Below, piece after piece: positions 3,748 through 20,266 of a stretch of 20,266 nt of DNA. Under the pieces are notes generated by a model. That model was not told where the DNA came from and did no database searches. It saw only the letters and a list, made by a program, of their open reading frames with translations. The position numbers and the translations under genes were made by a program. Origin of the DNA: a virus; IMG/VR virus record IMGVR_UViG_3300027980_000319, positions 1 through 20,266 of that record, one strand, 5' to 3'. Positions within the stretch are counted from its first letter, which is position 1; every line of letters starts with the position of its first letter.

Positions 3748-6701
3748 GATGCAACCACCGCCCTTTCATCTACAGGAAGCCGTCCTTCCCTAAATCCTCT
3801 AATTAGCCAACCCTCAAGCTGTTCGTCTCCAACCTGTAATATGACCGGCTGCTTCTCATCAGACCCGGACAGCCCGGAAGAATTAAAGCCAGTTGAAGAA
3901 GTGGGTTCAACAGTGACGCGTTCCCGGCCTCCGACATTATCACCAACCATAATAGGCATTGGACCGTTAGTCTCGAAAGATCCACCTTCAGCAAAGGCAG
4001 GGGGTTGAGGTTTGGAAGCGGCAACCGCTGCAATCTGCAACCCGCTTGCAGTCCCTTGAAGAGCTGCCAGTGGTATGTTTAGAGGGAAAGGTACAGAAGC
4101 TAAAGTTCTTGCCACAGCAAGCGCCCCTTGAGCAATGGAGGTTGCAAGGCTTATACGCCAAGAAGCCAACGCCGCTTTATATTCAGCCTGTGCTTTCTCC
4201 TTTTCAAATCGTTCAACTATCTTCGCCCGCTCTATAGCGTCCTGCTTTTCTTTTATCAAGGCTGTATCACCGGCCTTAAAAGCGGCGGCAAGTTCTCTTT
4301 CCAGCCTCTCCATTGTGGACTCTTCCAAAAGCCCGTTTGCCTCTAATTCAGCTTGAAGTCTTGCATCGATTGCGGCAAGATCGTTTTCTAGTCTTACTTG
4401 ATTTAAATTATCTAAAGCTGAAAGTAAATTGGTTGTTCCGTTTACGATACTACTTGTATAGTCAAACCAGTTTTCTTTTAAGAATTCAACCGTATCTTTC
4501 CAAATCGCTCTAAGTTGTTGGGTCAAGGCAGAAGCTGAATTGAAAATCTTTTCATTGGCAGCCCGAACAGCCGCCAGTTTGAGGGCCTGAATTTTTGTAA
4601 AGTTTTCCGCAGCTTGTTCTTCCGGAGAATCACCGCCACCATCACCACCAAGACCGGCAGCCACTTCCGCGTTCAATCGCTTCTGTTCTTCAAGTGCGGC
4701 AAGTCGGGCAATTCTTTCCCTTTCAATCTCCGCTATATTAGACGCAGTCTGTTCTTTCACTGCCTGTTTATTGGCAGCAGCCGCAGCAATAGCCGCTTCG
4801 CTGGAAGCAATAGATTCCAACCTTGCCGCCTCGATTTCCCCGGCAAACCCGTTGACATTTTCCTGAAGATCCGCAAACTTTTCCCCGACAAATGGTAACT
4901 TGGCAGCAAGATCCAGAAACTTATTAACACCGCCTAAAAGCTTTTCAAGTATAATCCCGGCTAGTTCAAGAACAACAACCTTTACGCTGTTAAACGCAGT
5001 TATCCAAGCCGCAGAAATTGAAGCCCCTATTAGTTTAAAAATCTCTTTTAATTTACTCAAAGTTGTAGTTATCTGAACAACAACAAAATCCCAGTTCTTA
5101 ACCAAAAGGATAATTGCGGGAATTAATATAGTAATGATAATGGCGGCAATAGCTCCAATCGGGTTAGCAGCAACGGCAACATTTAAAGCCTTAAAAGCAA
5201 CCGCAAGCCCCTGTATTACAGCGGCCCCCTTTGATATAGCTAAGAACGTAATAACCCCGGCAGTAAGACCGGCAAGAACAGGAACGGCTTTCCCTACAAT
5301 TTCAACAAATGAAACCAAGGCGGGAAGAACCCGGGACCCTATCTCTATTCTAAGGTTTTCAAACTTGATTTGTGCTTGCTCTAGTCTGAACGCCTGAGAA
5401 GCAAACCCTGAAGTTTGCTTTTCAAGGGCTGTGGTTGCCGCTCCTGAGTTGTTTTCAAACTCTTTGAGTATATCGTTGTAAACAGCGCCATCTTCCGCTC
5501 CTGCTGCAAGAGCACCACGCAAACCCCTAATATTAGGCACAAGCTTTGCTATCTCTTCCAGTGAACCGTTTGAAGCCTGTTGGATAAACTCTAAAGCGCC
5601 TCCAAGCCCTTCAGATTCTAACAGGGCAGACCCAGAGGCAAACCCGTATTCATTTATAGCTTTTGTCAAATCTTCAGTTGGCTTTAAAAATGCGTTGACA
5701 ATACCGTTAAGCTGTGTTGTTGCTTCCGCTGCGGGAACCCCGACCTTAGTCAGAGTAGCAATCCCGGCGCCAAGATCTTCTAATGGAAGTTGAGCGGCGG
5801 CAAAAAGTGAAATAGATTTTCCTATTGTCTGGGATAGTTCTTCCCCGGTAATCTTTCCCTGCTTAACTATAGTAAAATAATCGTCTGTGATATCCGCAGC
5901 GCTTTGCGCTTCCGGTCCATACGCATTTAAAGCGGTCGTTACAATATCGACCGCTTGAGCGTTTTCTATTAATGCGCCTTTGGCTAGAACTGAAGATTCA
6001 GTTACAACGTCAATGGCTTCCGCAAGGCTGCCAGCACCCGCCGAAAGGGATTGGTAAACCCCGGCAGAAAGTTCTTTCTTCTGTATGGCAAAATCTTCTG
6101 ACAATTCAGTTATGGACCCGTCAAGCCTCTGAAATTGTTCATCGGTAATATCAATTAGTGTATTAACATTGGCTATCTGTTTAGAATAATCCACAAAATC
6201 AGTCGTTGAGGACCCTATGAAAGCAGTAGCTGCCGCAATAGAAACAAACCCTGCCGCAATCCCGGCAAGGTTCTTTATTGAAACAGTAGCTGTTTGATTA
6301 AACTTCCTGGAATTAGCAGTTGTTTTTTTCTGTTCCTGCTGATATTTCTTTTGAGCGTCTTTGGCTTTTAATATCTGATCATCAAGTTGATTATACCTAT
6401 CCCTCAATTTACCGATAGAAGCAGATTGCGGGTCAATCCCGTTTCTTATTAAACTTTGGATCTGTTTTCTTAAAGCTTTCTGTTCAGCCTGTGCGCCTTT
6501 AAGTGATCCGCTGGTTGCCTTAACGGCGGCGGCTGCCCGTTTATTCCTATCGATGAATTGATCTATTTCTTTAGGATTAAAAGCGGCGCGGAATTGTTCA
6601 ATTTCCTGCGTGACTTCCTTCGTCTCTGTTCCAAAATCATCTAAATCTTTTTGAGCCTGAGCAAAATTAGAATTTACAGTAACATTAATTTTTGCGGCCA
6701 C
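3744..6701 (-). CDS. Tail tape measure protein (TP901 type), 985 aa
   Basis: This protein sets tail length and is released during DNA ejection. At 985 aa it is the longest gene here and sits directly after the tail assembly chaperones, as expected. Residues about 75-130 are a charged coiled coil; about 165-400 form the TP901-type tape-measure core, with segments such as LSAGVYQSLSAGAGS and LPLEDLGAGIATLTKVGVPA typical of that family. A long hydrophobic stretch (about 465-535, including AIAAIIITILIPAIILLV) and another near 845-905 are probably membrane-interacting. A second coiled coil (about 640-700, ERIARLAALEEQKRL) lies between them. The start is GTG at 6701 with an AGGGG site about 7 bases upstream; no ATG fits better. 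By the usual length rule (about 0.15 nm per residue) the tail would be roughly 150 nm. Confidence 0.95.
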   Translation of the reverse strand: MAAKINVTVNSNFAQAQKDLDDFGTETKEVTQEIEQFRAAFNPKEIDQFIDRNKRAAAAVKATSGSLKGAQAEQKALRKQIQSLIRNGIDPQSASIGKLRDRYNQLDDQILKAKDAQKKYQQEQKKTTANSRKFNQTATVSIKNLAGIAAGFVSIAAATAFIGSSTTDFVDYSKQIANVNTLIDITDEQFQRLDGSITELSEDFAIQKKELSAGVYQSLSAGAGSLAEAIDVVTESSVLAKGALIENAQAVDIVTTALNAYGPEAQSAADITDDYFTIVKQGKITGEELSQTIGKSISLFAAAQLPLEDLGAGIATLTKVGVPAAEATTQLNGIVNAFLKPTEDLTKAINEYGFASGSALLESEGLGGALEFIQQASNGSLEEIAKLVPNIRGLRGALAAGAEDGAVYNDILKEFENNSGAATTALEKQTSGFASQAFRLEQAQIKFENLRIEIGSRVLPALVSFVEIVGKAVPVLAGLTAGVITFLAISKGAAVIQGLAVAFKALNVAVAANPIGAIAAIIITILIPAIILLVKNWDFVVVQITTTLSKLKEIFKLIGASISAAWITAFNSVKVVVLELAGIILEKLLGGVNKFLDLAAKLPFVGEKFADLQENVNGFAGEIEAARLESIASSEAAIAAAAANKQAVKEQTASNIAEIERERIARLAALEEQKRLNAEVAAGLGGDGGGDSPEEQAAENFTKIQALKLAAVRAANEKIFNSASALTQQLRAIWKDTVEFLKENWFDYTSSIVNGTTNLLSALDNLNQVRLENDLAAIDARLQAELEANGLLEESTMERLERELAAAFKAGDTALIKEKQDAIERAKIVERFEKEKAQAEYKAALASWRISLATSIAQGALAVARTLASVPFPLNIPLAALQGTASGLQIAAVAASKPQPPAFAEGGSFETNGPMPIMVGDNVGGRERVTVEPTSSTGFNSSGLSGSDEKQPVILQVGDEQLEGWLIRGFREGRLPVDERAVVAS

Positions 6702-6711
6702 GTATTAACCC

Positions 6712-7020
6712 CTATTTTCTTTTTGATTTTTGTATAGTGAATTGTTCGTTTTCCCGTTCCACTCTGTTAAAGCTTTTAAGGAAATCAACAACCCAAGGCG
6801 CTTCGTTATACCACCCGCTGCCGTTTGGCATTCCAAACTCTTTGCAGGTTTCCCAAAACCCGTAATAATGAAGAAAGTCATCACTTCTGATGACTCTCTT
6901 TTCTTCTCCGTCATAGATAACCTTAAACGGTTTATTGTTCCGGTAATTAACAAGCTCTTCAATACAAATCATATAGTCCCCGGGTAAAAGTTCCCAATCA
7001 TCCCAAAACAAACGATCCAT
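6712..7020 (-). CDS. Downstream tail assembly chaperone frame (lambda gpT-like position), 102 aa
   Basis: Located between the gpG-position gene and the tape measure, this frame matches lambda T by position. In lambda, T is made only as a gpG-T fusion by a -1 ribosomal frameshift. Here the frame is exactly -1 relative to the upstream gene, and it stays open upstream through 7104, past the upstream stop, so a fusion is possible. However, it also has its own ATG at 7020 with a GAGG site 8 bases away, so separate translation is possible too. The protein is rich in Trp, Tyr and acidic residues (DRLFWDDWELLPGDY) and has a C-terminal NGSGWYNEAPWVVDFLKS segment, reminiscent of small proteins next to tape measures. 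Its sequence similarity to gpT is not evident by eye. Confidence 0.65.
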   Translation of the reverse strand: MDRLFWDDWELLPGDYMICIEELVNYRNNKPFKVIYDGEEKRVIRSDDFLHYYGFWETCKEFGMPNGSGWYNEAPWVVDFLKSFNRVERENEQFTIQKSKRK

Positions 7021-7517: not shown

Positions 7518-8213
7518 TTAAAATACCGTTTCGGTTGCGTTTGTTGTTCTTACATAAACCGTTGCAGCGCCCTGTCCTTTCGAATAGGAAAGGTCAAAGT
7601 TCTGAGCGCCTTTAAGCGGCTTATCCAATGTGATTGAAGATAAGATTACCGGAAAGAGAAGCCAAACTTGCTTATCGCCCACGGCAATTTGATCGCTATT
7701 CTGCAAGATTGCGAGAAGAACGTCTTCATCATCTTTTTGGGTAAAGGTGTAAGTTCCTTCACCGTCATCTTCTGAAAGGTCAAAAAACTTCTGCAAAAAG
7801 CGAAGTTGAGTTTCGTTGATACCACCACCGGGAGAAATAAATCTCAAGAATGCACTTATGTCCCCGGAAAGATCTGTATAACCGTCAACAATACTTACAT
7901 TATAACCATCGTCGCAATCATCCGTCACATCAATTGTTCCCTTCTCTCCACTGATAGAAGCATCAACTTTACAAATTTTATTCAGCGTAATAGGAAAAAC
8001 GTCATCATCCACAATCGGGGTAATGGCGTTTGCATTATCAGGCGATTTAAAATTATATGTTGAGCTAAACGGAAGAGTGGACCCGACCGCTGCTTTTTTG
8101 TCAATTTGAAACCATGAGTTGTCAGCTAAGGCGGCAATCCCGTCTCCTGCAACTAATGATCCCTTGACTGCTTCAAAAAGTATGGCAACCTTACCACTTT
8201 TTTTTACGTCCAC
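7518..8213 (-). CDS. Major tail tube protein (lambda gpV-like position), 231 aa
   Basis: By order (tail terminator, tail tube, chaperones, tape measure) this is the tail tube subunit, and its length (231 aa against 246 for lambda gpV) fits. The protein is beta-rich, with N-terminal VKKSGKVAILFEAVKGS, an acidic region around residues 65-125, and C-terminal strands QVWLLFPVILSSITLD. No membrane segment or signal is visible. The start is GTG at 8213, with AGGGGG about 6 bases before it. Sequence identity to gpV is not obvious by eye, so the call rests mainly on gene order and the immediate neighbours. Confidence 0.8.
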   Translation of the reverse strand: MDVKKSGKVAILFEAVKGSLVAGDGIAALADNSWFQIDKKAAVGSTLPFSSTYNFKSPDNANAITPIVDDDVFPITLNKICKVDASISGEKGTIDVTDDCDDGYNVSIVDGYTDLSGDISAFLRFISPGGGINETQLRFLQKFFDLSEDDGEGTYTFTQKDDEDVLLAILQNSDQIAVGDKQVWLLFPVILSSITLDKPLKGAQNFDLSYSKGQGAATVYVRTTNATETVF

Positions 8214-11631: not shown

Positions 11632-12543
11632 GAAATTCTCCTTATTAATATTTCCATCCGCATTTACAAGCGGAGCGGATTCCAAACCAATAGACCCTCT
11701 AACCAAATACTCTAAAACCTCATCAGATTTAAGCATTTTATCAGCAAGTCCGAAATCAATAGCTTCCCTGCCAACAAGAACACGACCCTTTAAAGAGTCG
11801 ATTTTTTCATCGGTTAAAACTTCTGATCTTTTTATTAAAACAGTTTCTTTAAATATATTATAGACTGTGTTCATCTGATCGACTACTAAATTCTTACCCT
11901 CATCAGTTCGAAGGTCTGCAATCTTCTCACTTGAAGCCGTATTGGTGATAAACTCACGCTTAACCCCGGAAGCTTCTTCTTCTACGGTTCTATTATAAAA
12001 CTCGATCACAACACCGATTGAACCAACCTCTGAAGTTTTAGAAGCAAGAACAACTTCATCACAGGAAGCAGCAAGCCAATAAGCGGCGCTATCTGCTTTA
12101 TTAAATACAACAGCCGTGGTTTTTTTTGAACTGCTGAAAAATCTCTGGGAAGTAATCTCAAGCCCGGAAAGATTCCCACCGCTTGAATCAATTAAAAACG
12201 CGATTTGATCAACAAAAGGATCATTGTCTGCACGAAGTACAGCTTCTCTAATATACCGGTAGGTAGTGACCGTTTCTCCGTAAAACGCCGCGCAAATATC
12301 AACCTGTTGAACAAGCATTCCCTTTACATGGATCTGAGCGACACCATCATTAAATGAATAAAAGTCTTTATTATCACCTGAATCTTCAGGATCAAAATCA
12401 AAGACTTTAGCATTTTGAATAACATCTTCTTTAGCAGCTTTTACTTCACCTTTTTTCATAGCCGCTCTTGTTTGAATTAACAAGTCTTTTGCATTCCCAA
12501 ACTCACGAACTTGATACTCGGGCATTACATAAAGTACATTCAT
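11224..12543 (-). CDS. Prohead protease (S49 family, lambda gpC-like) with C-terminal scaffold region, 439 aa
   Basis: This serine protease matures the prohead; in lambda gpC the C-terminal third also supplies the scaffold. Residues about 60-290 form the S49/ClpP-like fold: the oxyanion loop DSSGGNLSG (119-127), the nucleophile Ser152 in KADSAAYWLAASCDE, and GSIGVV (175-180) after it. Lys207 in TASSEKIAD is the best candidate for the dyad lysine, corresponding to Lys218 of lambda gpC. From residue 305 the protein changes to a charged helical region (LNEVLAKYPEAKAEHEAQQ), the scaffold part, with its own internal start. Start ATG 12543 overlaps the portal TAA by one base and has AAGGAG about 7 bases upstream. 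Confidence 0.93.
   Translation of the reverse strand: MNVLYVMPEYQVREFGNAKDLLIQTRAAMKKGEVKAAKEDVIQNAKVFDFDPEDSGDNKDFYSFNDGVAQIHVKGMLVQQVDICAAFYGETVTTYRYIREAVLRADNDPFVDQIAFLIDSSGGNLSGLEITSQRFFSSSKKTTAVVFNKADSAAYWLAASCDEVVLASKTSEVGSIGVVIEFYNRTVEEEASGVKREFITNTASSEKIADLRTDEGKNLVVDQMNTVYNIFKETVLIKRSEVLTDEKIDSLKGRVLVGREAIDFGLADKMLKSDEVLEYLVRGSIGLESAPLVNADGNINKENFMDVKLTLNEVLAKYPEAKAEHEAQQAANAENQDKALKADRERFARILTLSGAKISEAVLLDAKNGMSVAEFSEKELESKTRIDANTDTQDLGELNSSSQLPKKLTAEEEGETSYLARVDNAIDKLVGKNNQKGVK
11638..11643 (-). promoter_or_regulatory. Internal ribosome binding site for nested scaffold start
   Basis: Reads AAGGAG on the minus strand, six bases before the internal ATG at 11629-11631. It is stronger than the sites of many flanking genes, and there is no coding reason for it. 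It decides the scaffold start. Confidence 0.75.
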
Positions 12544-14024
12544 TATTCAGCTCCTTTATTTTCACTTTTTTCTTCTTCCTGCTTCCGAAGCTCTTCTTCA
12601 AATAAAAGCCTATTCTGAAAATCAGGAGCGACCCGGGAATATTCATCTTGCTGCTTTTGCCATTCTTCCAAGAAGTTTTCATATTCATGACCGTTAAGAT
12701 TGGCGAAAGTAGAGCGCAGTTCAAACCCCTGCTTGACTTGTTCAGCCTGAGCTTTAACTTCTACAAGCGGGTTGATATGTCCCGGGATAGGGCCAAGGTA
12801 AACGCCTGAAAGATAAGCCTGAACTATTCGCCAATCTCCCGTTAAGAATCCCGGGGCCTCTATATATCGGTTTTTTATAGCATCTGTCAAGATTGCTGAA
12901 TTTATAGGATCGTTCACATTCCTTGCAAACGATTTTCTTTTATTATTTGATGATAATTTCAAATCATTAATGGCGCCCTTATGAGCCGTAAAGGAAGTAG
13001 AATATTCTCCTAGTATTGATTCAGGAGGTGTGCCGGTTGCCATTCCGCAATATTTAACCATCCAGCCTTTAAACTCTCCAAAGTTTTTAGAAGGGGTTTG
13101 AAGGTCCGTGAAAGAAAGCTCTTCCCCGGCATTGAACTGAAAAATTGACCCTGCGCCCATGTTGGCAGCGTTGGCAATTTTAGAAAGAGGGTTCCAGTGT
13201 CTTCCCTTCTTCGCCCTGTTTGCATCGGCAAGGTTTTTAGCTTGCTTGGGAAGATCTGTCCCGTTCCCTTTAAAAGTTGCCATTATAATGGCTTCCATAA
13301 CAGCCCTGTGAGTGATTGCATCGGTATGCGTATCATCATTTCTAGCCATGTTTATGATTGAATATATAAAAGGATAACCGCGCAATTGGCGCGGCAGTTC
13401 TTTAAGGTAGAATTGAAGAAGATCCTGATTCCCTGCGGAATCCTTAAACATGGTTGTTTTTCCGTTTGTTCTTTTGATTCCCTTTCTTCTCAGCTTTTCA
13501 TCGTGCAGAATCCCCAGAGTATACCCTGAGTTATTCAAAACTTTGCTGTTAAAACTAGAATCAATCTCACAATTCTGCATTTCAATTAAATCTGTTAAAA
13601 GTCCGTTTTCTCTCTCTAAAAAAACTAACGCGTCCCCGGCAGACATAGCCCCGCGTGCTGTAACGCTTTGCTTTTCATACCAGTTAAATCTTCTATAATA
13701 GGAATCGATAATTTTTTGAAAGTCACGCGCCCAAGCCGCAGCATCTGCCCGGGAGATTCCGAGTGTCTGCCAATCCGGCTGACTTCTGTAAACAAGCCCC
13801 GGACCGATAGAATAATCAAGCTGTTTATTAATAGCCGCTCTTGCTGGTGGATAGGTATGATAGAGCGTGGTTGATCTTGATGAAAGAATGTCATAGCTTC
13901 CATATAAAAGCCCGTTTGAATCGGCTGAAAGAACGCGCCAATTGTCAAGGGAACCCATATCTTTTTCGCCGCTGTAAGTCCCGCCGAATATCTTATTCAT
14001 GAAATTCTTTGAATAGTGAATCAT
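12543..14024 (-). CDS. Portal protein, lambda gpB family, 493 aa
   Basis: Twelve copies form the ring at the packaging vertex; the terminase docks on it and the head-tail joiner attaches below. Length 493 aa against 533 for lambda gpB. Family signatures: the N-terminal helix YPPARAAINKQLDYSIGPGL, the segment LRGYPFIYSIINMARNDDTHTDA, KYCGMATGTPPESIL, NNKRKSFARNVNDP, and near the C-terminus GPIPGHINPLVEVKA (from residue 411), which is highly typical. The C-terminus is a charged helix ending in Glu/Lys. ATG 14024 follows directly on the TAA of the gpW-like gene, with GGCGGGG about 6 bases upstream; Met9 is a less likely alternative. Confidence 0.95.
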   Translation of the reverse strand: MIHYSKNFMNKIFGGTYSGEKDMGSLDNWRVLSADSNGLLYGSYDILSSRSTTLYHTYPPARAAINKQLDYSIGPGLVYRSQPDWQTLGISRADAAAWARDFQKIIDSYYRRFNWYEKQSVTARGAMSAGDALVFLERENGLLTDLIEMQNCEIDSSFNSKVLNNSGYTLGILHDEKLRRKGIKRTNGKTTMFKDSAGNQDLLQFYLKELPRQLRGYPFIYSIINMARNDDTHTDAITHRAVMEAIIMATFKGNGTDLPKQAKNLADANRAKKGRHWNPLSKIANAANMGAGSIFQFNAGEELSFTDLQTPSKNFGEFKGWMVKYCGMATGTPPESILGEYSTSFTAHKGAINDLKLSSNNKRKSFARNVNDPINSAILTDAIKNRYIEAPGFLTGDWRIVQAYLSGVYLGPIPGHINPLVEVKAQAEQVKQGFELRSTFANLNGHEYENFLEEWQKQQDEYSRVAPDFQNRLLFEEELRKQEEEKSENKGAE

Positions 14025-14237
14025 TTAAAACCCCGCCAATAAACCGTTTGACCCTTGAACGGCCAAAAGCTGACTTTCTAAGCCAGCTTTATATTCTGTT
14101 AACCTGTCAAGGTCTTCAGCTTTAAATATTCTTTTTGTCGGACCGCTGCCAACCTCGTATTCTTTTCCAAGTAAAAGCATTCTATGAATTGCGTCTTCGA
14201 CTTCTGCTATCCTTGTAGTAAGTTCCGCTTCTGTCAA
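14025..14237 (-). CDS. Head-tail joining protein, gpW-like, 70 aa
   Basis: Lambda gpW is 68 aa and is encoded between terminase and portal; this 70-aa gene is directly upstream of the portal gene. The pattern fits: a first helix (AELTTRIAEVEDAIHRMLLLGKE as two short runs), a beta hairpin around YEVGSGPTKRIF, then a helix DLDRLTEYKAGLESQ. gpW stops DNA leakage and is the platform for tail attachment. The start codon is TTG at 14237, overlapping the TGA of the upstream gene (TTGA), with GAGGG eight bases upstream; no ATG is available. The call is by size, place and pattern and is fairly safe. Confidence 0.82.
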   Translation of the reverse strand: MTEAELTTRIAEVEDAIHRMLLLGKEYEVGSGPTKRIFKAEDLDRLTEYKAGLESQLLAVQGSNGLLAGF

Positions 14238-14383
14238 TTTTTTACCCTCATCTTTTTATATGAATCTTTTTCAACCGGCAGCATGGGACCATGACAGCAA
14301 AAGCGCTTTTCCTTTCCCAACCGAAAGAAAGAACGCTTGCTTTTGCCGCACTTAACACAAATGTAATAATACATTATCCTCAT
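14234..14383 (-). CDS. Mini cysteine-rich (probable zinc-binding) protein, 49 aa
   Basis: Begins at ATG 14383, whose first bases overlap the TGA of the upstream gene (ATGA), and ends at TGA 14234-14236, which overlaps the TTG start of the gpW-like gene. The protein starts MRIMYYYICVKCGKSKR and has Cys9, Cys12, Cys29 and Cys30, spaced C-x2-C-x16-C-C, with a basic composition. This spacing is the same as in the next-upstream 77-aa gene, so the two look like paralogues. Four cysteines in this layout suggest a small zinc knuckle for nucleic acid or protein contact. It is too short for default gene finders and would be missed. No family is recognised; translation coupling at both ends supports it. 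Confidence 0.7.
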   Translation of the reverse strand: MRIMYYYICVKCGKSKRSFFRLGKEKRFCCHGPMLPVEKDSYKKMRVKN

Positions 14384-14613
14384 ATATTGCCCGTTTGGTC
14401 AAGTTCTTTAAGTTTAAGCTTCTTCATTAATCCTGTGTTTTTAGGCTCTGAAGACCTCTTGTCAATAAACTTCCTCTGTTCACTCTCATGCTCATATTGC
14501 AACCTGTCAAGAGATCGCATACGCCTATCGCAGCAAACAGCAAAGGTTTTCTTTTTTGCAATTAGATTTATTTTTAAGCTCTTACATTTTGAGCACTGAA
14601 AATATTTTATCAT
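14380..14613 (-). CDS. Small cysteine-rich (probable zinc-binding) protein, 77 aa
   Basis: ATG at 14613 overlaps the TGA of the 283-aa gene by four bases (ATGA), and its own TGA overlaps the next ATG. The N-terminal part has Cys7, Cys10, Cys27 and Cys28 (C-x2-C-x16-C-C: CSKC then VCC), followed by a charged, helical tail with many Lys, Glu and Arg and no other domain. The basic, metal-ligand-like N-terminus suggests nucleic acid or terminase interaction. It aligns without gaps in the Cys spacing with the 49-aa gene next to it. A plus-strand frame overlaps it but has no such context. Function unknown. Confidence 0.7.
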   Translation of the reverse strand: MIKYFQCSKCKSLKINLIAKKKTFAVCCDRRMRSLDRLQYEHESEQRKFIDKRSSEPKNTGLMKKLKLKELDQTGNI

Positions 14614-15461
14614 ATTGTCACCAACTCCACATTCCCGGCATATAACATTCTAAATCTGTCAAGGCTTGTCAAATCGTCCTGAATAATCAGCTCTATTTTA
14701 TCAATTCCAGAAACTGCGGGAGCAACCCCGTGTTTATCTTCTCCGCCCCAAGTATAACGCCATAAAAAACCGTCTTGGCCTTGATTTGGATTAGAAGCAG
14801 CGTAAGCATTCCAATCATAAGCAAGCCCTGCAAGTTCTCCGTTTGTTCTCACGTTCCAGTTATTTGTCGGGGGAATCCCTAGCGCCGGATCTGGAACCCC
14901 GCGCAATAAAAGCCCATATTCAAGACCGCCGACAATATCCCCGAATTTTGAAAGGTCAACAGAAGAATCAGTTAAACATTCGCCAATCATCCTTATTATA
15001 TTTAAATTATTTGCTATAAGACCGGGAGGAAGAAAAGCTTCGAACTTTTGAGGAGTAACCGACCCGTCAACATTTAAATCAATCGTTCTTGATTGGACTG
15101 AAGCCCCGGCTAGGTAATCAGTATTCAAAAGAGGAGCAACCGTGATTGCACTTCCAACCACTGCTTTTACGTCCCCGCTATAAACGCCGAACGGGGTAGT
15201 CAGTAAAGCTCTGTCCCCTATAGAAAAAGAAGAAGGGTCAACAACTTCTAGGGTTCTTGTATCTTGACTGGCAGGAGCTGAAAGGGTTGTTGGTACTCCG
15301 TTCGCTTTGGAAAAATAAAAATCAATAGGAATTTTAATAATATCATTTTGCTCAGTTAGCGGATTAACAACAACAAGCGCCCTTTGTTTTTCTCCCGCCG
15401 CGTCTTCATATTCGCATTGATTAAAATCTTTCCTGATAAAAAATAAATCACCTTTACTCAT
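14610..15461 (-). CDS. Virion-type protein of unknown function, 283 aa
   Basis: No named function is recognised. The middle (about 55-130) is a beta-rich insertion with SIGDRALLTTPFGVYSGDV, similar to the small surface beta domains of phage virion proteins. It is followed by LNVDGSVTPQKFEAFLPP, FGDIVGGLEYGLLLRG and ELIIQDDLTSLDRFRML, a motif series I associate with uncharacterised tailed-phage proteins found among structural genes; this is recall, not a search. It is the first gene on this strand after the cassette, and no neighbour in lambda occupies this place. The ATG at 15461 has only a weak AGG before it, while a promoter -10 box ends just 6 bases upstream, so it may be read from a leaderless or nearly leaderless transcript. 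Confidence 0.75.
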   Translation of the reverse strand: MSKGDLFFIRKDFNQCEYEDAAGEKQRALVVVNPLTEQNDIIKIPIDFYFSKANGVPTTLSAPASQDTRTLEVVDPSSFSIGDRALLTTPFGVYSGDVKAVVGSAITVAPLLNTDYLAGASVQSRTIDLNVDGSVTPQKFEAFLPPGLIANNLNIIRMIGECLTDSSVDLSKFGDIVGGLEYGLLLRGVPDPALGIPPTNNWNVRTNGELAGLAYDWNAYAASNPNQGQDGFLWRYTWGGEDKHGVAPAVSGIDKIELIIQDDLTSLDRFRMLYAGNVELVTI

Positions 15462-15467
15462 GCGCCT

Positions 15468-15496
15468 ATTATAAACCCTTATATAAAAAAATTCAA
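15468..15496 (-). promoter_or_regulatory. Candidate minus-strand promoter for the downstream late genes
   Basis: On the minus strand: TTGAAT (-35, 15491-15496), a 17-bp spacer, and a perfect TATAAT (-10, 15468-15473). The ATG of the 283-aa gene begins six bases after the -10, so the transcript would start at or very near the ATG. It restarts transcription of the late genes beyond the opposite-strand cassette. AT richness here makes chance boxes possible. Confidence 0.5.
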
Positions 15497-15523
15497 AAGA
15501 AATAAAAAAAGGCTAAGAAAGTG

Positions 15524-15552
15524 TTGACAAGTTACCCAATGGGTAATATACT
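15524..15552 (+). promoter_or_regulatory. Promoter P1 of the cassette, with operator in spacer
   Basis: Consensus TTGACA (15524-15529), a 17-bp spacer and TATACT (15547-15552). The spacer holds the palindrome TTACCCAATGGGTAA (15532-15546: arms of 7 bases around a central A), so a protein bound there would block RNA polymerase. A start site would be near 15559, and AGGAG (15564-15568) then ATG 15577 follow. The 29 bases 15522-15550 are identical to 16084-16112 (P2). Confidence 0.85.
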
Positions 15553-15576
15553 TGTAATTAGATAGGAGATAGAGAG

Positions 15577-15795
15577 ATGAAAGAAACAAAATACCGCGAA
15601 GTTGAAAAATTGAAACCCACAAGATCATTAAAATGGGATAAGAGCAAAAGAGGATGGGTGCAGGATATGGATACTCCATTAATCTATAAAGTCCATACTG
15701 TATCAAGGACTAGTTGTCACAACATAATCGATTGTGATTCACCTGAAAAGGCAGAAAAAGTTTATTTAAAAAAACTTAAAACTTTAATAAAATAA
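15577..15795 (+). CDS. Cassette gene 1, basic unknown protein, 72 aa
   Basis: I recognise no family. First gene behind promoter P1, with AGGAG eight bases before the ATG. The protein is basic (many Lys), with an N-terminal Lys/Arg-rich stretch (REVEKLKPTRSLKWDKSKRG), an aromatic centre and a C-terminal helix (PEKAEKVYLKKLKTLIK). No signal peptide, membrane segment or catalytic motif is visible. It is followed by gene 2 after 34 bases that carry a small hairpin. It could be an inhibitor or other accessory protein; the assignment to the anti-defence class is inference from locus layout only. Confidence 0.7.
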   Translation: MKETKYREVEKLKPTRSLKWDKSKRGWVQDMDTPLIYKVHTVSRTSCHNIIDCDSPEKAEKVYLKKLKTLIK

Positions 15796-15802
15796 ATAAT
15801 AA

Positions 15803-15816
15803 GGGGCTAAGGCCCC
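15803..15816 (+). other. Small GC-rich hairpin between cassette genes 1 and 2
   Basis: GGGGC-TAAG-GCCCC, a perfect 5-bp stem with a 4-base loop, in an otherwise AT-rich gap. No T tract follows, so it is not a terminator. It ends 14 bases before the ATG of gene 2 and could influence initiation or protect mRNA. Confidence 0.45.
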
Positions 15817-15829
15817 GGGAGAAAGAAAG

Positions 15830-16015
15830 ATGACAAATTATAGTTTTAGTGATTTTAGAAATACAAGTAGTTTGGGATTTTTTGAAATGACAGTTTTTAA
15901 CGAAAACGGTAATGTGGTTGTAGTTTTTAATGGTGGCTCAAAAGAATTAATAAATATTGAACGTGAAATCAGATCAGGAACGCCCATAGAAAAATTCAAA
16001 TCATATTATGCATAA
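15830..16015 (+). CDS. Cassette gene 2, unknown protein, 61 aa
   Basis: Unknown family. A GGGAGAAAG ribosome binding site precedes ATG 15830. The 61-aa protein has a polar N-terminus, a strongly beta middle (FFEMTVFNENGNVVVVFNGG) and a C-terminal helix (ELINIEREIRSGTPIEKFKS). No metal ligands or catalytic residues stand out. It ends P1's unit; a terminator-like hairpin with a long T tract follows within 30 bases. Its small size and soluble alpha/beta shape are common for phage inhibitors of host functions, but that is only a suggestion. Confidence 0.65.
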   Translation: MTNYSFSDFRNTSSLGFFEMTVFNENGNVVVVFNGGSKELINIEREIRSGTPIEKFKSYYA

Positions 16016-16038
16016 ATAAAAATAAATAAGGTTGCAAG

Positions 16039-16073
16039 GGTACTTTTAAAAGTACTCTTTTTTTTATTTTTTT
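16039..16073 (+). terminator. Terminator closing the P1 unit, AGTACT-type palindrome
   Basis: The palindrome GTACTTTTAAAAGTAC (16040-16055) can form a hairpin and is followed by two T runs (16058-16065 and 16067-16073). The stem is AT-rich and so weaker than the second terminator. A close copy of the palindrome is found twice near the end of the large terminase gene. Confidence 0.6.
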
Positions 16074-16085
16074 GTGATGAATATG

Positions 16086-16114
16086 TTGACAAGTTACCCA
16101 ATGGGTAATATAAT
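16086..16114 (+). promoter_or_regulatory. Promoter P2 of the cassette, with operator in spacer
   Basis: Perfect TTGACA (16086-16091), a 17-bp spacer and perfect TATAAT (16109-16114), a full consensus sigma70 promoter. The palindrome TTACCCAATGGGTAA (16094-16108) fills the spacer as in P1. A start site would be near 16121, and GGGAG (16132-16136) and ATG 16143 follow. Such a strong promoter usually needs repression, which the operator would supply. Confidence 0.88.
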
Positions 16115-16142
16115 AAGAACATAAAGAAACCGGGAGAAGAAA

Positions 16143-16376
16143 ATGGAATTACAGATTCAAACAGGAACACACAATTCAGTTACTATTACAGCAGGGAAGA
16201 AAGAGTTCTTCATTATGAAATCAGATTATTCTATCAATGTACTTTGTAAAAATGCAGCACATGCAGCTTACAACGGAATGGGTAAATTCTTTGATACATG
16301 GGAACAGGCAATTGACGCATATAAAAGCGAAGCGGCTAAAGAGTCAATCAAAACAGCCAGAGAGATTTTAAAATAA
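16143..16376 (+). CDS. Cassette gene 3, unknown protein, 77 aa
   Basis: First gene behind the consensus promoter P2, with a GGGAGAAG ribosome binding site. The 77-aa protein has an N-terminal beta part (MELQIQTGTHNSVTITAG, KEFFIMKSDYSINVL) and a C-terminal helix rich in Ala, Lys and Glu (EQAIDAYKSEAAKESIKTA). It contains one Cys. No family is recognised. Being first behind the strongest promoter, it should be the most highly expressed gene of the cassette if P2 is free, which makes it the best candidate for the main effector. Function not assigned. Confidence 0.7.
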   Translation: MELQIQTGTHNSVTITAGKKEFFIMKSDYSINVLCKNAAHAAYNGMGKFFDTWEQAIDAYKSEAAKESIKTAREILK

Positions 16377-16403
16377 TTTAAAGTTTATCGCCCCGGCAGC
16401 GGA

Positions 16404-16420
16404 GCAAAGGGGACCAAATG
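16404..16420 (+). repeat. Translation-initiation repeat, copy 1
   Basis: GCAAAGGGGACCAAATG, ending in the ATG of gene 4. The same 17 bases occur at 16873-16889, ending in the ATG of gene 6. It contains AAGGGGA, a good Shine-Dalgarno site. Shared leader sequence suggests duplication of an initiation module or a common translational control site. Confidence 0.6.
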
Positions 16421-16597
16421 AAAGATGAAAAAAGACTATCAGAAAGAAGAAAGATCATAAAGCAAATTAACAAATTCCACAAAAACGGAAGCAAAACTCT
16501 TTGTAGTGATTATTTAAATTATCGTAGTGAAGGCGGGGGATTATCTCCAATTGCTTGGAATAATAGAATAAAAGAAATGGAGAAAGAGCAAAAATGA
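16418..16597 (+). CDS. Cassette gene 4, basic unknown protein, 59 aa
   Basis: A 59-aa gene from ATG 16418 to TGA 16595-16597, just below usual length cutoffs. The start has a strong AAGGGGA site. The protein is strongly basic at its N-terminus (MKDEKRLSERRKIIKQINK), with a polar centre and a charged C-terminus (RIKEMEKEQK), and contains one Cys. Its stop overlaps the next ATG (ATGA), a translational coupling signal and good evidence that it is real. I recognise no family. The basic helical start would suit RNA or DNA binding, but this is a guess. Confidence 0.65.
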   Translation: MKDEKRLSERRKIIKQINKFHKNGSKTLCSDYLNYRSEGGGLSPIAWNNRIKEMEKEQK

Positions 16598-16806
16598 AAA
16601 CAGAAATATATAACGATCCAAAATATTGTTACAATGAAATCAGGATTGCGCGAGACATTTTTACTAGCGAAAAACTATTTACTCAAGAAAAAGCCGAATT
16701 GCTTTTAAAGGGGTTAATAATGATGCTAGTTTATTGTCCTGAAGAACTAAGAATTCCGATAGAAGCAACAATAAAAGAGATTGAAATTAGAAGAGCTTAT
16801 ATATAA
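16594..16806 (+). CDS. Cassette gene 5, helical unknown protein, 70 aa
   Basis: Overlaps gene 4 by four bases (ATGA). The 70-aa protein is predicted almost wholly helical, with amphipathic segments (NEIRIARDIFTSEKLFTQEK, then AELLLKGLIMMLVYCPEE and ATIKEIEIRRAYI). The middle is hydrophobic but interrupted by charges, so it is more likely a helical bundle or dimer than a membrane protein. No family is recognised. An 80-base gap follows, the largest inside the cassette, holding no clear terminator and ending in the repeated GCAAAGGGGACCAAATG leader. Confidence 0.65.
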   Translation: MKTEIYNDPKYCYNEIRIARDIFTSEKLFTQEKAELLLKGLIMMLVYCPEELRIPIEATIKEIEIRRAYI

Positions 16807-16872
16807 ACAATCATCTTACAGCTCTTATTATTACTGGTAAGGGTTTTTAATTTTAACAGCTCCTTAATTGGG

Positions 16873-16889
16873 GCAAAGGGGACCAAATG
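16873..16889 (+). repeat. Translation-initiation repeat, copy 2
   Basis: Identical 17 bases to 16404-16420, again ending at a start codon (gene 6). Part of the 80-base gap after gene 5, where I see no promoter or strong hairpin. Confidence 0.6.
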
Positions 16890-17219
16890 GAATATAAGTT
16901 ATCAAAAGAACAGATCATGAATTTTGTTGAAATTTTTACAGAGAATATGGAAAAATTTAATAATGATAGTCTTTTAGAAATAGATCTTCTAAAATCAAGA
17001 TCATTTAGATTTTCAGATATTCAATCACCAATCCACACAAAAAAAGAAAAAATTGCATTAAAGCTTTCACAACAAACAATCTATGACTTTAAAACTGTTT
17101 ATATGGCCTACAAAGCAATCGGGTCGATAGTAAAAACAAATGATGTTTTGCTGTACTGTACAAAAACAGGAACAAACCCTCTTTCAATTATTACCGGCTA
17201 TCAAAGGAAGTTAAAATGA
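16887..17219 (+). CDS. Cassette gene 6, unknown protein, 110 aa
   Basis: The largest cassette protein. Start ATG has the strong AAGGGGA leader shared with gene 4. The sequence is helix-rich with a charged N-terminal half (SKEQIMNFVEIFTENMEKF) and a Lys/Ser/Thr-rich centre, then SQQTIYDFKTVYMAYKAIGS and a basic C-terminus (GYQRKLK). Three short potential helices around 68-90 could form a DNA-contacting unit, but no clear helix-turn-helix is visible. Its TGA overlaps the next ATG by four bases. I recognise no family. Confidence 0.7.
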   Translation: MEYKLSKEQIMNFVEIFTENMEKFNNDSLLEIDLLKSRSFRFSDIQSPIHTKKEKIALKLSQQTIYDFKTVYMAYKAIGSIVKTNDVLLYCTKTGTNPLSIITGYQRKLK

Positions 17220-17410
17220 ATGAAGCTACTATTTTACTATTAAAATATACATTAACGTGTTTAGTACTTTTCCTGTATGGGGCATTAATGACTGGTTATT
17301 TTCTTGATGTGCTCTCTTCAAGAATATCACTGTATTTCCATACTTATCTGACAGCTATTTGCGGCATTTTGCTTGTAACATTTTCTATCTTTACAATATG
17401 GAGTTTTTAA
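17216..17410 (+). CDS. Cassette gene 7, small two-helix membrane protein, 64 aa
   Basis: Start ATG overlaps the gene 6 stop (ATGA). Two hydrophobic helices are visible: residues about 5-29 (TILLLKYTLTCLVLFLYGAL) and about 41-62 (TAICGILLVTFSIFTIW), separated by a short polar loop with one Arg and one Asp. There is no cleavable signal peptide. This is an inner-membrane protein. It is between a soluble gene and the HTH regulator, so it is not expected in a purely structural operon; a membrane role such as superinfection exclusion, or a holin-like or toxin-like role, is possible but not shown. The family is unknown. Confidence 0.7.
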   Translation: MNEATILLLKYTLTCLVLFLYGALMTGYFLDVLSSRISLYFHTYLTAICGILLVTFSIFTIWSF

Positions 17411-17411
17411 A

Positions 17412-17702
17412 ATGAAACCAGAGGACATAAAGAAGATAAGAGGAGATTTAACAAGAAAAGCTTTTGCTGCTGAACTTCTAAGAATGAGTGAGTATTACCT
17501 TCATTTTAGAGAGGATGTCAAAATACATGAGCGGACAATTGTTAAATACGAAAGGGGAGAGCGAACGCCAAACCCTTGGCAGGAGTTTTTAATCCTTATG
17601 TATGATGCAAAAAATAAAAATATAGTTTATGAAAATCGATTCATTAAACACCTGAAAGAAAACAATTTTGATCTTTCCTTGTTGCAAGAAAATGAAAGTT
17701 GA
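17412..17702 (+). CDS. Cassette gene 8, XRE-like helix-turn-helix regulator with insertion, 96 aa
   Basis: Likely DNA-binding repressor, last gene of the cassette. Residues 3-24 (PEDIKKIRGDLTRKAFAAEL) match helices 1-2 of Cro/CI-type HTH domains, and 39-50 (HERTIVKYERGE) match recognition helix 3 with the typical W/Y-ERG ending; 54-68 form the next helix. About 14 extra residues (25-38, SEYYLHFREDVKIH) separate helices 2 and 3 relative to the usual domain. GGAG eight bases before ATG 17412 gives a good ribosome binding site. It is the obvious candidate to bind TTACCCAATGGGTAA in P1 and P2, autoregulating its own unit. In layout it resembles anti-CRISPR-associated (Aca) regulators; no alignment to a known Aca was made. 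Confidence 0.75.
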   Translation: MKPEDIKKIRGDLTRKAFAAELLRMSEYYLHFREDVKIHERTIVKYERGERTPNPWQEFLILMYDAKNKNIVYENRFIKHLKENNFDLSLLQENES

Positions 17703-17757
17703 CTTATAGTTACTTTGTTGTGTGATTCCCATTTATATGGTGCTATCAGTTCCGGTT

Positions 17758-17787
17758 CCCCTTCCGCTCTCGCGGAAGGGGTTTTTT
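17758..17787 (+). terminator. Strong intrinsic terminator closing the cassette
   Basis: Ten-base-pair perfect stem CCCCTTCCGC / GCGGAAGGGG (17758-17767, 17772-17781) with a TCTC loop, then TTTTTT (17782-17787). It acts on the plus strand 55 bases after the HTH gene stop, and ends the cassette before transcription would run into the convergent large terminase gene. No T tract is present on the minus strand side. Confidence 0.9.
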
Positions 17788-17791
17788 ATTT

Positions 17792-17838
17792 AGTACTTTT
17801 AAAAGTACTGATATTTAAAAAGTACTTTTGAAAGTACT
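17792..17838. repeat. Tandem AGTACT palindromes at the 3' end of the large terminase gene
   Basis: AGTACTTTTAAAAGTACT (17792-17809) and AGTACTTTTGAAAGTACT (17821-17838), starts 29 bases apart; the second covers the terL TAG stop (17837-17839). A third copy lies at 16039-16056. On the minus strand the copy overlapping terL is followed by five T, so it could be a weak terminator for terminase transcripts. The spacing and palindromy also fit a protein binding site. Confidence 0.6.
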
Positions 17839-19882
17839 AATTATATTCGGCCCCGTAATCTTCATAATCTTCTTCATAGTTACCGGTTAAATCTTTGTAG
17901 TAGCTTGAATATTCTTCTATCGACCAAGCAAAAATATTATCAAAATAAGCCCTAGCGATTGAATAATTTAAAACGTCTAACATTTCATTTCTTGCCCTGA
18001 TTGGAAACCAGCCCATTTTCCCCGGCTTTTTCGGGTCGTCTTGGTATCTCTCAGAAAGTATTTGTTTGTAAAACTCGTCTTCAATTTCTACTTTTACACC
18101 TTCCAAAATAACATACTTGGGGACATGAATTGTATTAAACCCTTCAGAGTTTTCAATTATGGCGTAAATAGACTCTTTTAATAGACTTACTGAAACCATA
18201 TATCTTTTGGTTAGTGTTGTCTTAACATCGTTTATTCTACTTTCTTTAATTATTCCCATTGATTTTTCATCAGGATTACCCATTATAGCAATAAATTTAT
18301 CCTGCCTTAAGGAAACAAACTCATAAACTATATGGGCTTTTCCGTTGAAATCTTTTTTCCTTTTGGCTGCTTTTCTTGGGTCATATCCTGCGTCCATTGC
18401 AATCCCGCCAATATAAACTTCTTGGCCTGAAACAAGATAAGTTTTTTGATAGGCAAAGTCTGAAAGGGCAGTGTAACAAGGATCATCAATTCTAGCTGTG
18501 TTACCATAAAAAACCTGTCTGTCAACTATCCACTTTTCACCATTATAGCCAAAGCCGACAACCGCCAATTCTAATCTGTCCCCTTGGACATCTACCCCAC
18601 CATAAAAAAGCATTGGGCCGGTATAAACCTCAACCCCGCTTATTGTTTTAAGTTTTCCTTGTGGAACAATTCCAAGAGTATATTCTTCAGCCCGTTCTTT
18701 TAACATTTCCCACTTGGCTGACTTTTTAACAGAAAACCAAGGACTAGCCATCATATCAATAACAAAATCTTTATATTTTGGAATATCCTGCCCGAACCCC
18801 GTATCAATAAAAGCTTGGCAGATCCTAGCCCAAGGCAGTACAGGGGATAAAAGCCCTGGGGCCTTGTATGAAGTTCTTAACGGGTCCGTTGTTTGACTGG
18901 TGGGCCGCCATACGCCATTGTTTAAAAGCCAGTGTTTATCAGATTCATGAAAATCTTTTTTACAATATTTACAAATAAACCTGATAGATTCTTTCTTTAG
19001 TATTTTTATCCCGGTTTTTTTATCTGTATCTCTTCTAAAAGTAAGTCCAAAATCTTCACCTTCCCTTTTTAGATCAAGTTCTTGCTTTTCTCCACAATGA
19101 GGGCAGGGAGGAAAAAAATGTCTTCTATCCCCAAGGAGATAATTTTTATATATTCTTGAAGTTTCAGCTCTGGAAGAAGTAGACCCTTGCAGAATCTTAT
19201 AGAATGCGGTCCCATATGTACGACCCTCAACAACTTTTTCAACGTCCCCAAGGTCTTTAATTTCAGCCGCTGCTTCGTCAAGCTCATCTTCTACAATGAA
19301 GTTAAACTTGTTTGATTTCAGATCCGCAACCGAATTGTAAGAGGACATCATAAAAATGCTATTACCGGCAAGCTCTTTATATAAAACATTATCTTTAGTT
19401 TTTCTTTTATTCCTGTTCGACATTGGCCGGATATATTCCGCAAGGTTAGAATTATCAATCAAAGTATCAATGTTGGCCGAACCCCTAACACTGGCAATAG
19501 TTTTGGTAGATGTCAGATAGAGAATAGATCCTAATTTGTTTCGTATGAACGCGCCCATGCCGTTTTCACATACAGTTGTAGTAAACATTGACTGTACACT
19601 CTTTATTACTGATATGATCCTCACAGGGTCATCAGGATGAAGCCTGTCAAGGACTTCGTTCCAATGCGGGGCAAACTCTTTGTCAAATGGTCCCGGGAAG
19701 TCAGAAATTCCCTCTGGAATATATCTATTGTCCTGCGCCCAATCGGAAAACATTTGAACATAATATTCCTCTGGAAGTGCGTTTATTCTTTCAAGCGCAT
19801 AATCCATTTGATTCTGTTGAATCAGTTCTATTATTTCGTATTGTGAATTTTGATATAGGGCTTGAGTTAACCCGCGTTCCAT
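17837..19882 (-). CDS. terL: Terminase large subunit, lambda gpA family, 681 aa
   Basis: The packaging ATPase and cos-cutting nuclease; length 681 aa against 641 for lambda gpA. In order: adenosine-binding/Walker A region VIKSVQSMFTT (about 92-102), Walker B FIVEDE (195-200), coupling motif GST (233-235), CPHCGEKQ (260-267) and CKYC (304-307) as a Cys-rich zinc-like insert, nuclease Asp431 in YGGVDVQGDRLELA, Asp497 in GIAMDAGYDP, and RNEMLDVLNY (from 631). These align with lambda's KSARVGYSK, GST, CPHCGEEQ, GIDSQLDRYEM, CWDTGG and RNEALD. The Walker A is odd: the expected Gly/Lys positions are Met99 and Thr102. ATG 19882 overlaps the small-subunit stop by 16 bases. The stop overlaps a palindrome. 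Confidence 0.95.
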   Translation of the reverse strand: MERGLTQALYQNSQYEIIELIQQNQMDYALERINALPEEYYVQMFSDWAQDNRYIPEGISDFPGPFDKEFAPHWNEVLDRLHPDDPVRIISVIKSVQSMFTTTVCENGMGAFIRNKLGSILYLTSTKTIASVRGSANIDTLIDNSNLAEYIRPMSNRNKRKTKDNVLYKELAGNSIFMMSSYNSVADLKSNKFNFIVEDELDEAAAEIKDLGDVEKVVEGRTYGTAFYKILQGSTSSRAETSRIYKNYLLGDRRHFFPPCPHCGEKQELDLKREGEDFGLTFRRDTDKKTGIKILKKESIRFICKYCKKDFHESDKHWLLNNGVWRPTSQTTDPLRTSYKAPGLLSPVLPWARICQAFIDTGFGQDIPKYKDFVIDMMASPWFSVKKSAKWEMLKERAEEYTLGIVPQGKLKTISGVEVYTGPMLFYGGVDVQGDRLELAVVGFGYNGEKWIVDRQVFYGNTARIDDPCYTALSDFAYQKTYLVSGQEVYIGGIAMDAGYDPRKAAKRKKDFNGKAHIVYEFVSLRQDKFIAIMGNPDEKSMGIIKESRINDVKTTLTKRYMVSVSLLKESIYAIIENSEGFNTIHVPKYVILEGVKVEIEDEFYKQILSERYQDDPKKPGKMGWFPIRARNEMLDVLNYSIARAYFDNIFAWSIEEYSSYYKDLTGNYEEDYEDYGAEYN

Positions 19883-20266
19883 CTTTTGACCTCATTAGCT
19901 TGAGCAATTTTAACACTTTTAATTACATTGTTAAGCTCTTTCTTGATCATTTCGATTATGGCACCGCCCTTCTTCTCATTGACTAGAGTTAAGATTCTAG
20001 GTTCAATTCTATCAATCATTTTGTAAGAATCAATATTCATTTTCTCCATATAAGACACAAAACAAAAATCAAAAAAAGCTATCTCACCAACTTCTTCAGA
20101 ATCCTTCATTAACTGGATTCTCTCCCGTTGCAGCTTGATTGATTTAATCTCTTGATCATGTACAGTTTTTTTGTAGGAAGCGCTTCTTGCCTGATCTATA
20201 AGTTCCTGATCGGCATTATTCTCTTCTGTATTACCTGAATCCTGCGACCGCGATTTTTTTTTATCT
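19867..20266 (-). CDS. terS: Terminase small subunit, probable, partial (N-terminus beyond window)
   Basis: The frame is open from the right window edge to TAA 19867-19869, giving 132 residues of C-terminal part; an internal Met at 20109 is not a likely start because the frame continues upstream with good coding content. The fragment starts KKKSRSQDSGNTEEN, then a charged helix (QARSASYKKTVHDQEIKSIK, ending ERIQLMKDSEEVGEI), like the central coiled oligomerisation region of Nu1-type proteins, where '..G.iv' follows the helix. The 16-base overlap with the large terminase start and the packaging position support the call. The DNA-binding winged helix expected at the N-terminus is outside the window. 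Confidence 0.72.
   Translation of the reverse strand, partial: DKKKSRSQDSGNTEENNADQELIDQARSASYKKTVHDQEIKSIKLQRERIQLMKDSEEVGEIAFFDFCFVSYMEKMNIDSYKMIDRIEPRILTLVNEKKGGAIIEMIKKELNNVIKSVKIAQANEVKRWNAG

Follow-up and report, generated by a model that had tools for sequence, protein, structure and literature searches.

A palindromic promoter site recurring in unrelated phages and its probable role in an autoregulated accessory cassette of an uncultivated tailed phage

The closest described counterparts of the locus studied here are the acr-aca operons, for which every set of promoters analysed contained an inverted repeat within the core promoter, a single one in most promoters, and repression by the cognate Aca protein was observed in the ten pairs tested (Shehreen et al., 2022, PMC9410906). 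For instance, the AcrIC7-AcrIC6-Aca10 operon of Pseudomonas citronellolis is formed by small genes and a small HTH regulator, and its operator, ATACGCTCATTGAGCGTAT, is a perfect palindrome with a 1-nt centre (CA-T-TG) lying in the -35/-10 spacer of a single promoter (PMC9410881). In the acrIF8-aca2 operon of Pectobacterium phage ZF40, Aca2, which possesses its own dimerization domain, represses its own expression through an inverted repeat overlapping the -10/-35 region, two repeats being present at one promoter (PMC8434428). A different kind of reference is constituted by the moron-type units of tailed phages, which are located between structural genes, display a lower G+C and have their own promoter and terminator.

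In this work, we analysed IMG/VR record IMGVR_UViG_3300027980_000319, a 20,266-base fragment of an uncultivated phage; the window, that is, the whole stretch of DNA analysed, is the entire record. It contains a cassette of small genes that resembles acr-aca10 in having an HTH gene at the end of its second unit, downstream of the small genes of that operon, and a perfect palindrome with the same 1-nt centre (CA-T-TG) within the core promoter. Conversely, the operator sequences differ, the window has two promoters instead of one, each with one repeat instead of the two repeats at one promoter of ZF40, its HTH protein is smaller than Aca2 and only weakly similar to Aca10, and no Acr was identified. 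As in morons, the cassette is an independent unit with predicted promoter and terminator between phage genes, but it comprises two units under one shared operator sequence. We consider it likely that this phage accessory cassette uses TTACCCAnTGGGTAA as the operator for its own Xre repressor, which would shut both units in the manner of Aca proteins.

Organization of the cassette and its promoters

The cassette lies on the plus strand between the terminase and the structural genes (Table 1); the flanking structural and packaging genes, which are those of a tailed phage, are all on the minus strand, and the G+C of the cassette is 0.31-0.36 compared with mostly 0.38-0.47 in the rest of the record. 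DNA similarity to the cassette was not found among cultured phages, and no relatives were retrieved from IMG/VR using peptide patterns of the window terminase and portal. As read from the sequence, predicted promoter P1 precedes unit 1, with two ORFs, and P2 precedes unit 2, with six ORFs (16143-17702), each unit being closed by a predicted terminator.

Sequence reading and a repeat search revealed a 29-nt block, TGTTGACAAGTTACCCAATGGGTAATATA, identical at 15522-15550 and 16084-16112. In agreement with the preliminary description, the block includes TTGACA, the 17-nt spacer and the start of the -10 box, both spacers harbor a perfect 7+1+7 palindrome (TTACCCA-A-TGGGTAA), and the two copies are not conserved outside the block. 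P1 and P2 are the top two sigma-70 promoter matches within 14000-20266, and P2 would be the stronger judging by its agreement with the consensus. No palindrome copies beyond the putative operators O1 and O2 were found in the window with up to 3 mismatches allowed, and none of 100 dinucleotide-preserving shuffles reached the observed count (shuffle mean, 0.56). MerR-type spacer operators are found in spacers of 19-20 nt; activation of this type, by distortion or untwisting of the spacer, was ruled out because both spacers are already of 17 nt.

Table 1. Coordinates of the predicted features of the cassette and its surroundings in the window.
Feature	Position	Strand	Description
Portal	12543-14024	minus	
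Candidate divergent promoter	15468-15496	minus	TTGAAT-17-TATAAT, consensus match only; adjoins P1 in divergent orientation and would serve the structural genes on the minus strand
Promoter P1 (predicted)	15524-15552	plus	TTGACA 15524-15529, 17-nt spacer, TATACT 15547-15552; 11/12 consensus matches
Operator O1 (putative)	15532-15546	strandless	TTACCCAATGGGTAA, perfect 7+1+7 palindrome inside the P1 spacer
Unit 1 ORF, 72 aa	15577-15795	plus	no family
Unit 1 ORF, 61 aa	15830-16015	plus	no family
Unit 1 terminator (predicted)	16036-16059	plus	10-bp stem followed by T-run
Promoter P2 (predicted)	16086-16114	plus	TTGACA 16086-16091, 17-nt spacer, TATAAT 16109-16114; 12/12 consensus matches
Operator O2 (putative)	16094-16108	strandless	same sequence as O1, in the P2 spacer
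Unit 2 ORF, 77 aa	16143-16376	plus	no family
Unit 2 ORF, 59 aa	16418-16597	plus	no family
Unit 2 ORF, 70 aa	16594-16806	plus	no family
Unit 2 ORF, 110 aa	16887-17219	plus	no family
Unit 2 ORF, 64 aa	17216-17410	plus	hydrophobic; membrane protein by eye
Unit 2 last ORF, 96 aa	17412-17702	plus	Xre-type HTH; proposed autorepressor acting on O1 and O2
Unit 2 terminator (predicted), strong	17758-17781	plus	10-bp stem with 8 G-C pairs, followed by T-run
GpA-type terminase	17837-19882	minus	family match

The cargo ORFs gave no match at a meaningful score in Pfam, PHROGs, NCBIfam and PADLOC, and these family searches detected none of the known anti-CRISPR genes among them. To our knowledge, most Acrs lack recognisable homologs, so the missing match says little.

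Other sequence elements were observed within the cassette. A stable GGGGC/GCCCC hairpin with 5 G-C base pairs (15803-15816, z -2.35) stands directly 5' of the ribosome-binding site of the 61-aa ORF, where translational control is possible. The palindrome GTACTTTTAAAAGTAC occurs three times (16040-16055, 17793-17808 and, imperfectly, 17822-17838); the first copy forms the stem of the unit 1 terminator, and the other two, in the stretch where unit 2 and the terminase gene converge, could be terminators of a minus-strand transcript. The gene leader GCAAAGGGGACCAAATG is repeated at 16377-16426 and 16846-16895 (72% over 50 nt), each time before a cassette ORF, and the leaders at 15814-15829 and 16129-16144 resemble one another.

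Occurrence of the palindrome in viruses and in bacterial genomes

Using the pattern TTGACAN{0,5}TTACCCANTGGGTAA, we scanned IMG/VR together with 257 Gb of genome sequence from bacteria and archaea. The palindrome linked to TTGACA was present in 8 IMG/VR contigs besides the window and in three places of the bacterial and archaeal genomes, all of them inside reading frames and close in number to the 2.8 estimated for random sequence. The preliminary description had named a wide spread of the palindrome outside promoters as an outcome that would speak against an operator, and this was not what the scan for the TTGACA-linked palindrome displayed. The same counts bear on the alternative that the site serves as operator for a regulator already present in the cell, either a host protein or the repressor of a resident prophage, which the phages exploit or by which they are silenced, the cassette HTH protein binding elsewhere. 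One site in unrelated phages could indeed reflect a shared cellular regulator, and P1 and P2 are sigma-70-like; nevertheless, the linked site is at chance level in the genomes and never at an intergenic promoter, and HTH gene and site co-occur within the same cassettes, for which we assign this explanation a low probability.

Besides the window, the site was found in four lineages: L003/L016, L004/L014, L005/L015 and a podovirus group (L006, L007, L008, L009, L010 and, later, L026 and L040). About five lineages, window included, share the operator sequence. Where whole records besides that of the window were checked, each contained the exact palindrome once. When the centre was freed to NNN, the same 8 IMG/VR contigs were recovered and none was added, all having ANT at the centre, even though 15/16 of the pattern space allowed others. 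With the -35 box loosened to TTGANN, 24 IMG/VR contigs were obtained, 16 of them new, two of which belong to the podovirus group; in most of the 16 the site was inside reading frames, and the matches outside reading frames in L027, L028, L033 and L035, having neither TTGACA nor a convincing -10 box, were set aside as uninformative. Freeing four palindrome positions yielded mostly imperfect or other palindromes among the matches listed, CC/GG being the commonest perfect class (8/17 among the matches listed). The exact 26-nt promoter had no match in IMG/VR, and only chance-level matches were obtained when the promoter was compared with cultured phages by short-query blastn. None of the papers covered by a literature search contained the operator sequence, the search returning only unrelated papers with the 11-mer core.

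Retrieval by the HTH protein alone provided an independent test of the association, since two contigs missed by the TTGACA pattern (L020/L026 and L023/L040) carried the exact 15-mer next to a TTGACT -35 box; the test was passed twice, though within one lineage. Because the 15-mer remains intact where the -35 box changes, the earlier proposal that the block is under constraint gains support. The palindrome might also be no operator at all, P2 being a recent copy of P1 in which the palindrome hitchhiked within a duplicated strong promoter, as two copies with 29 identical bases in one phage and the further duplicated leaders of the cassette could suggest. Against this, the perfect palindrome occurs in unrelated phages with other neighbouring bases, and is intact where the -35 box was altered; moreover, the -10 box and the distance between -35 box and palindrome (0, 2 or 4 nt) vary among these phages, which argues against one copied promoter and makes duplication a very unlikely account of the site.

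Cassettes and HTH proteins associated with the site

In contigs with flanks, the site was always 5' of a run of small ORFs, and the run opposes the structural genes in every lineage but one where the context is known. The cassette of L006, L010 and their kin is placed between portal and terminase genes on the opposite strand, its last gene encoding a 102-109 aa Xre-HTH protein. The site is by capsid/scaffold genes in L004/L014, the L014 run opposing the capsid and scaffold genes and ending in an Xre gene, and by the terminase in L005/L015, where the L015 run opposes the terminase genes and has the Xre gene mid-run; L003/L016 are arranged differently from the other lineages. A small Xre-type HTH gene is found at the end of or within the cassette in four lineages, and in an all-against-all comparison of cassette ORFs it alone gave matches between lineages (window vs. 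L006, E=9e-5; L006 vs. L014, E=1e-3; L006 vs. L015, E=4e-3). The cargo genes located between promoter and HTH gene change from one podovirus-group phage to the next. Two promoters with one operator each were particular to the window among the loci examined. We also observed that in podovirus-group cassettes a leader, AGAAAGGCAA..ATG, is repeated before several genes, and that the terminase frame of L015 (2842-5256, minus strand) has an apparent intein-like insertion directly after the TGPLGC motif.

Related sites were observed next to other phage regulators. In L016 (reverse complement), five exact or degenerate operator copies are found at 6674-6728 and 7697-7735, three between divergent genes and two around the next promoter; the divergent genes flanking the degenerate sites look Cro-like and CI-like, the latter matching phage repressor family phrog_12107 (E=4e-8). 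The related palindrome TTACCAATTTGGTAA is present in promoter spacers of L136, L137, L074 and L149, and its L136 copy adjoins a divergent Xre repressor gene. From the L016 sites and the L136 copy, this class of palindromes appears to be used by phage Xre proteins. These same two loci would fit a lysogeny-type operator, with the window HTH protein as a CI/Cro-like repressor and the cassette as part of an immunity region. However, in the 20,266 bases of the window and in the L006, L010 and L014 lineages the cassette is within the structural block and ends with the HTH gene, each promoter has one site, and a divergent repressor pair is lacking; hence, this reading is as improbable to us as that of a host regulator.

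Relatives of the cassette HTH proteins were identified by tblastn in Pseudomonas phage Sirocco and in Aeromonas phages 51 and 62AhydR11PP (Popoffvirus-like). Like the window, these phages have a small ORF and an HTH gene antisense within the structural block, and the promoters of 51 and 62AhydR11PP show by eye an apparent imperfect inverted repeat in the spacer, of a sequence differing from that of the window; unlike it, the three have one promoter and no TTACCCAnTGGGTAA. As the antisense layout is found in these phages too, it is widespread, and the link between the phages with the site is the exact operator and not the layout. The two-gene cassettes (L157, 3817-4393, Sirocco; L160, 3761-4177, 51; L161, 3735-4177, 62AhydR11PP) are candidate accessory loci, and one of their ORFs is annotated as pyruvate carboxyltransferase despite its length of 267 nt.

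The HTH protein of the window displayed a weak match to HTH_3 (E=0.02), with an insertion preceding the recognition helix, and 26-33% identity to the podovirus HTH proteins in the alignment. AlphaFold predicted, with moderate confidence (pLDDT 73.5), a five-helix Xre-like fold (helices 3-10, 15-30, 40-47, 55-69 and 75-83) with a recognition helix, as in the Xre/Cro HTH family, and the best Foldseek matches of this model were C.Kpn2I, HigA2, TP901-1 CI and Aca10, with probabilities of 0.97-1.00 to Xre proteins and poor E-values of 0.2-0.7 (Aca10, 0.71). In sequence comparison with the PDB, the L006 HTH protein matched Aca10 (7xi5) best, at a weak E=0.017. The Aca10 residues contacting DNA, R34 and R44 (PMC9410881), align with R30/R40 in the L006 protein and, through an intermediate sequence, with R41/R51 in that of the window, so that both arginines have an aligned counterpart in the latter; only the second is kept in L014 and neither in L015. 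Thus, the lineages do not fit equally, given that the L015 protein lacks the contact residues and L003/L016 are arranged differently. The L014 protein gave weak matches to Aca2 structures (E 0.5-1.2), no Aca-type match at cut-off was obtained for the window protein in NCBIfam, Pfam and PHROG, and no member of the HTH family was found in plasmids.

Proposed regulation and its implications

The autoregulated cassette that we favour would work as follows. The strong, housekeeping-type promoters P1 and P2 would fire fully right after DNA entry, and the Xre-HTH protein would accumulate from the last gene of unit 2; its dimer would then bind O1 and O2, one operator per promoter spacer, and exclude RNA polymerase from both promoters, resulting in a self-limiting shut-off of the two units. 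That one regulator, this HTH protein, may switch both units had been anticipated in the preliminary description, and it is favoured by the same promoter position of the 15-mer in the four other lineages, by an Xre-HTH gene usually late or last in the downstream operon, and by the recovery of the site through HTH-only retrieval. The cargo genes could act early against host defences, a role whose probability we place somewhat short of even. By analogy, the evidence supports a locus that works like an Aca-controlled operon; it falls short of establishing an acr-aca operon, and such a label would be premature because neither a member of a known Aca family nor an Acr was recognised.

More doubtfully, TTACCCAnTGGGTAA might be the common operator of a dispersed family of phage cassettes in which the cargo turns over, and operator and repressor stay. 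Since unrelated phages keep an identical site, a repressor could act beyond its own phage and shut counter-defence cassettes in others, raising the questions of why the operator is identical in unrelated phages and whether their repressors silence each other's cassettes. If this were true, TTACCCAnTGGGTAA alone would constitute a bait for new anti-defence genes. If our reading is right, a 15-bp sequence would mark regulator-controlled accessory cassettes in phages that otherwise share almost nothing, and would allow candidate anti-defence genes of uncultivated phages to be located from sequence alone.
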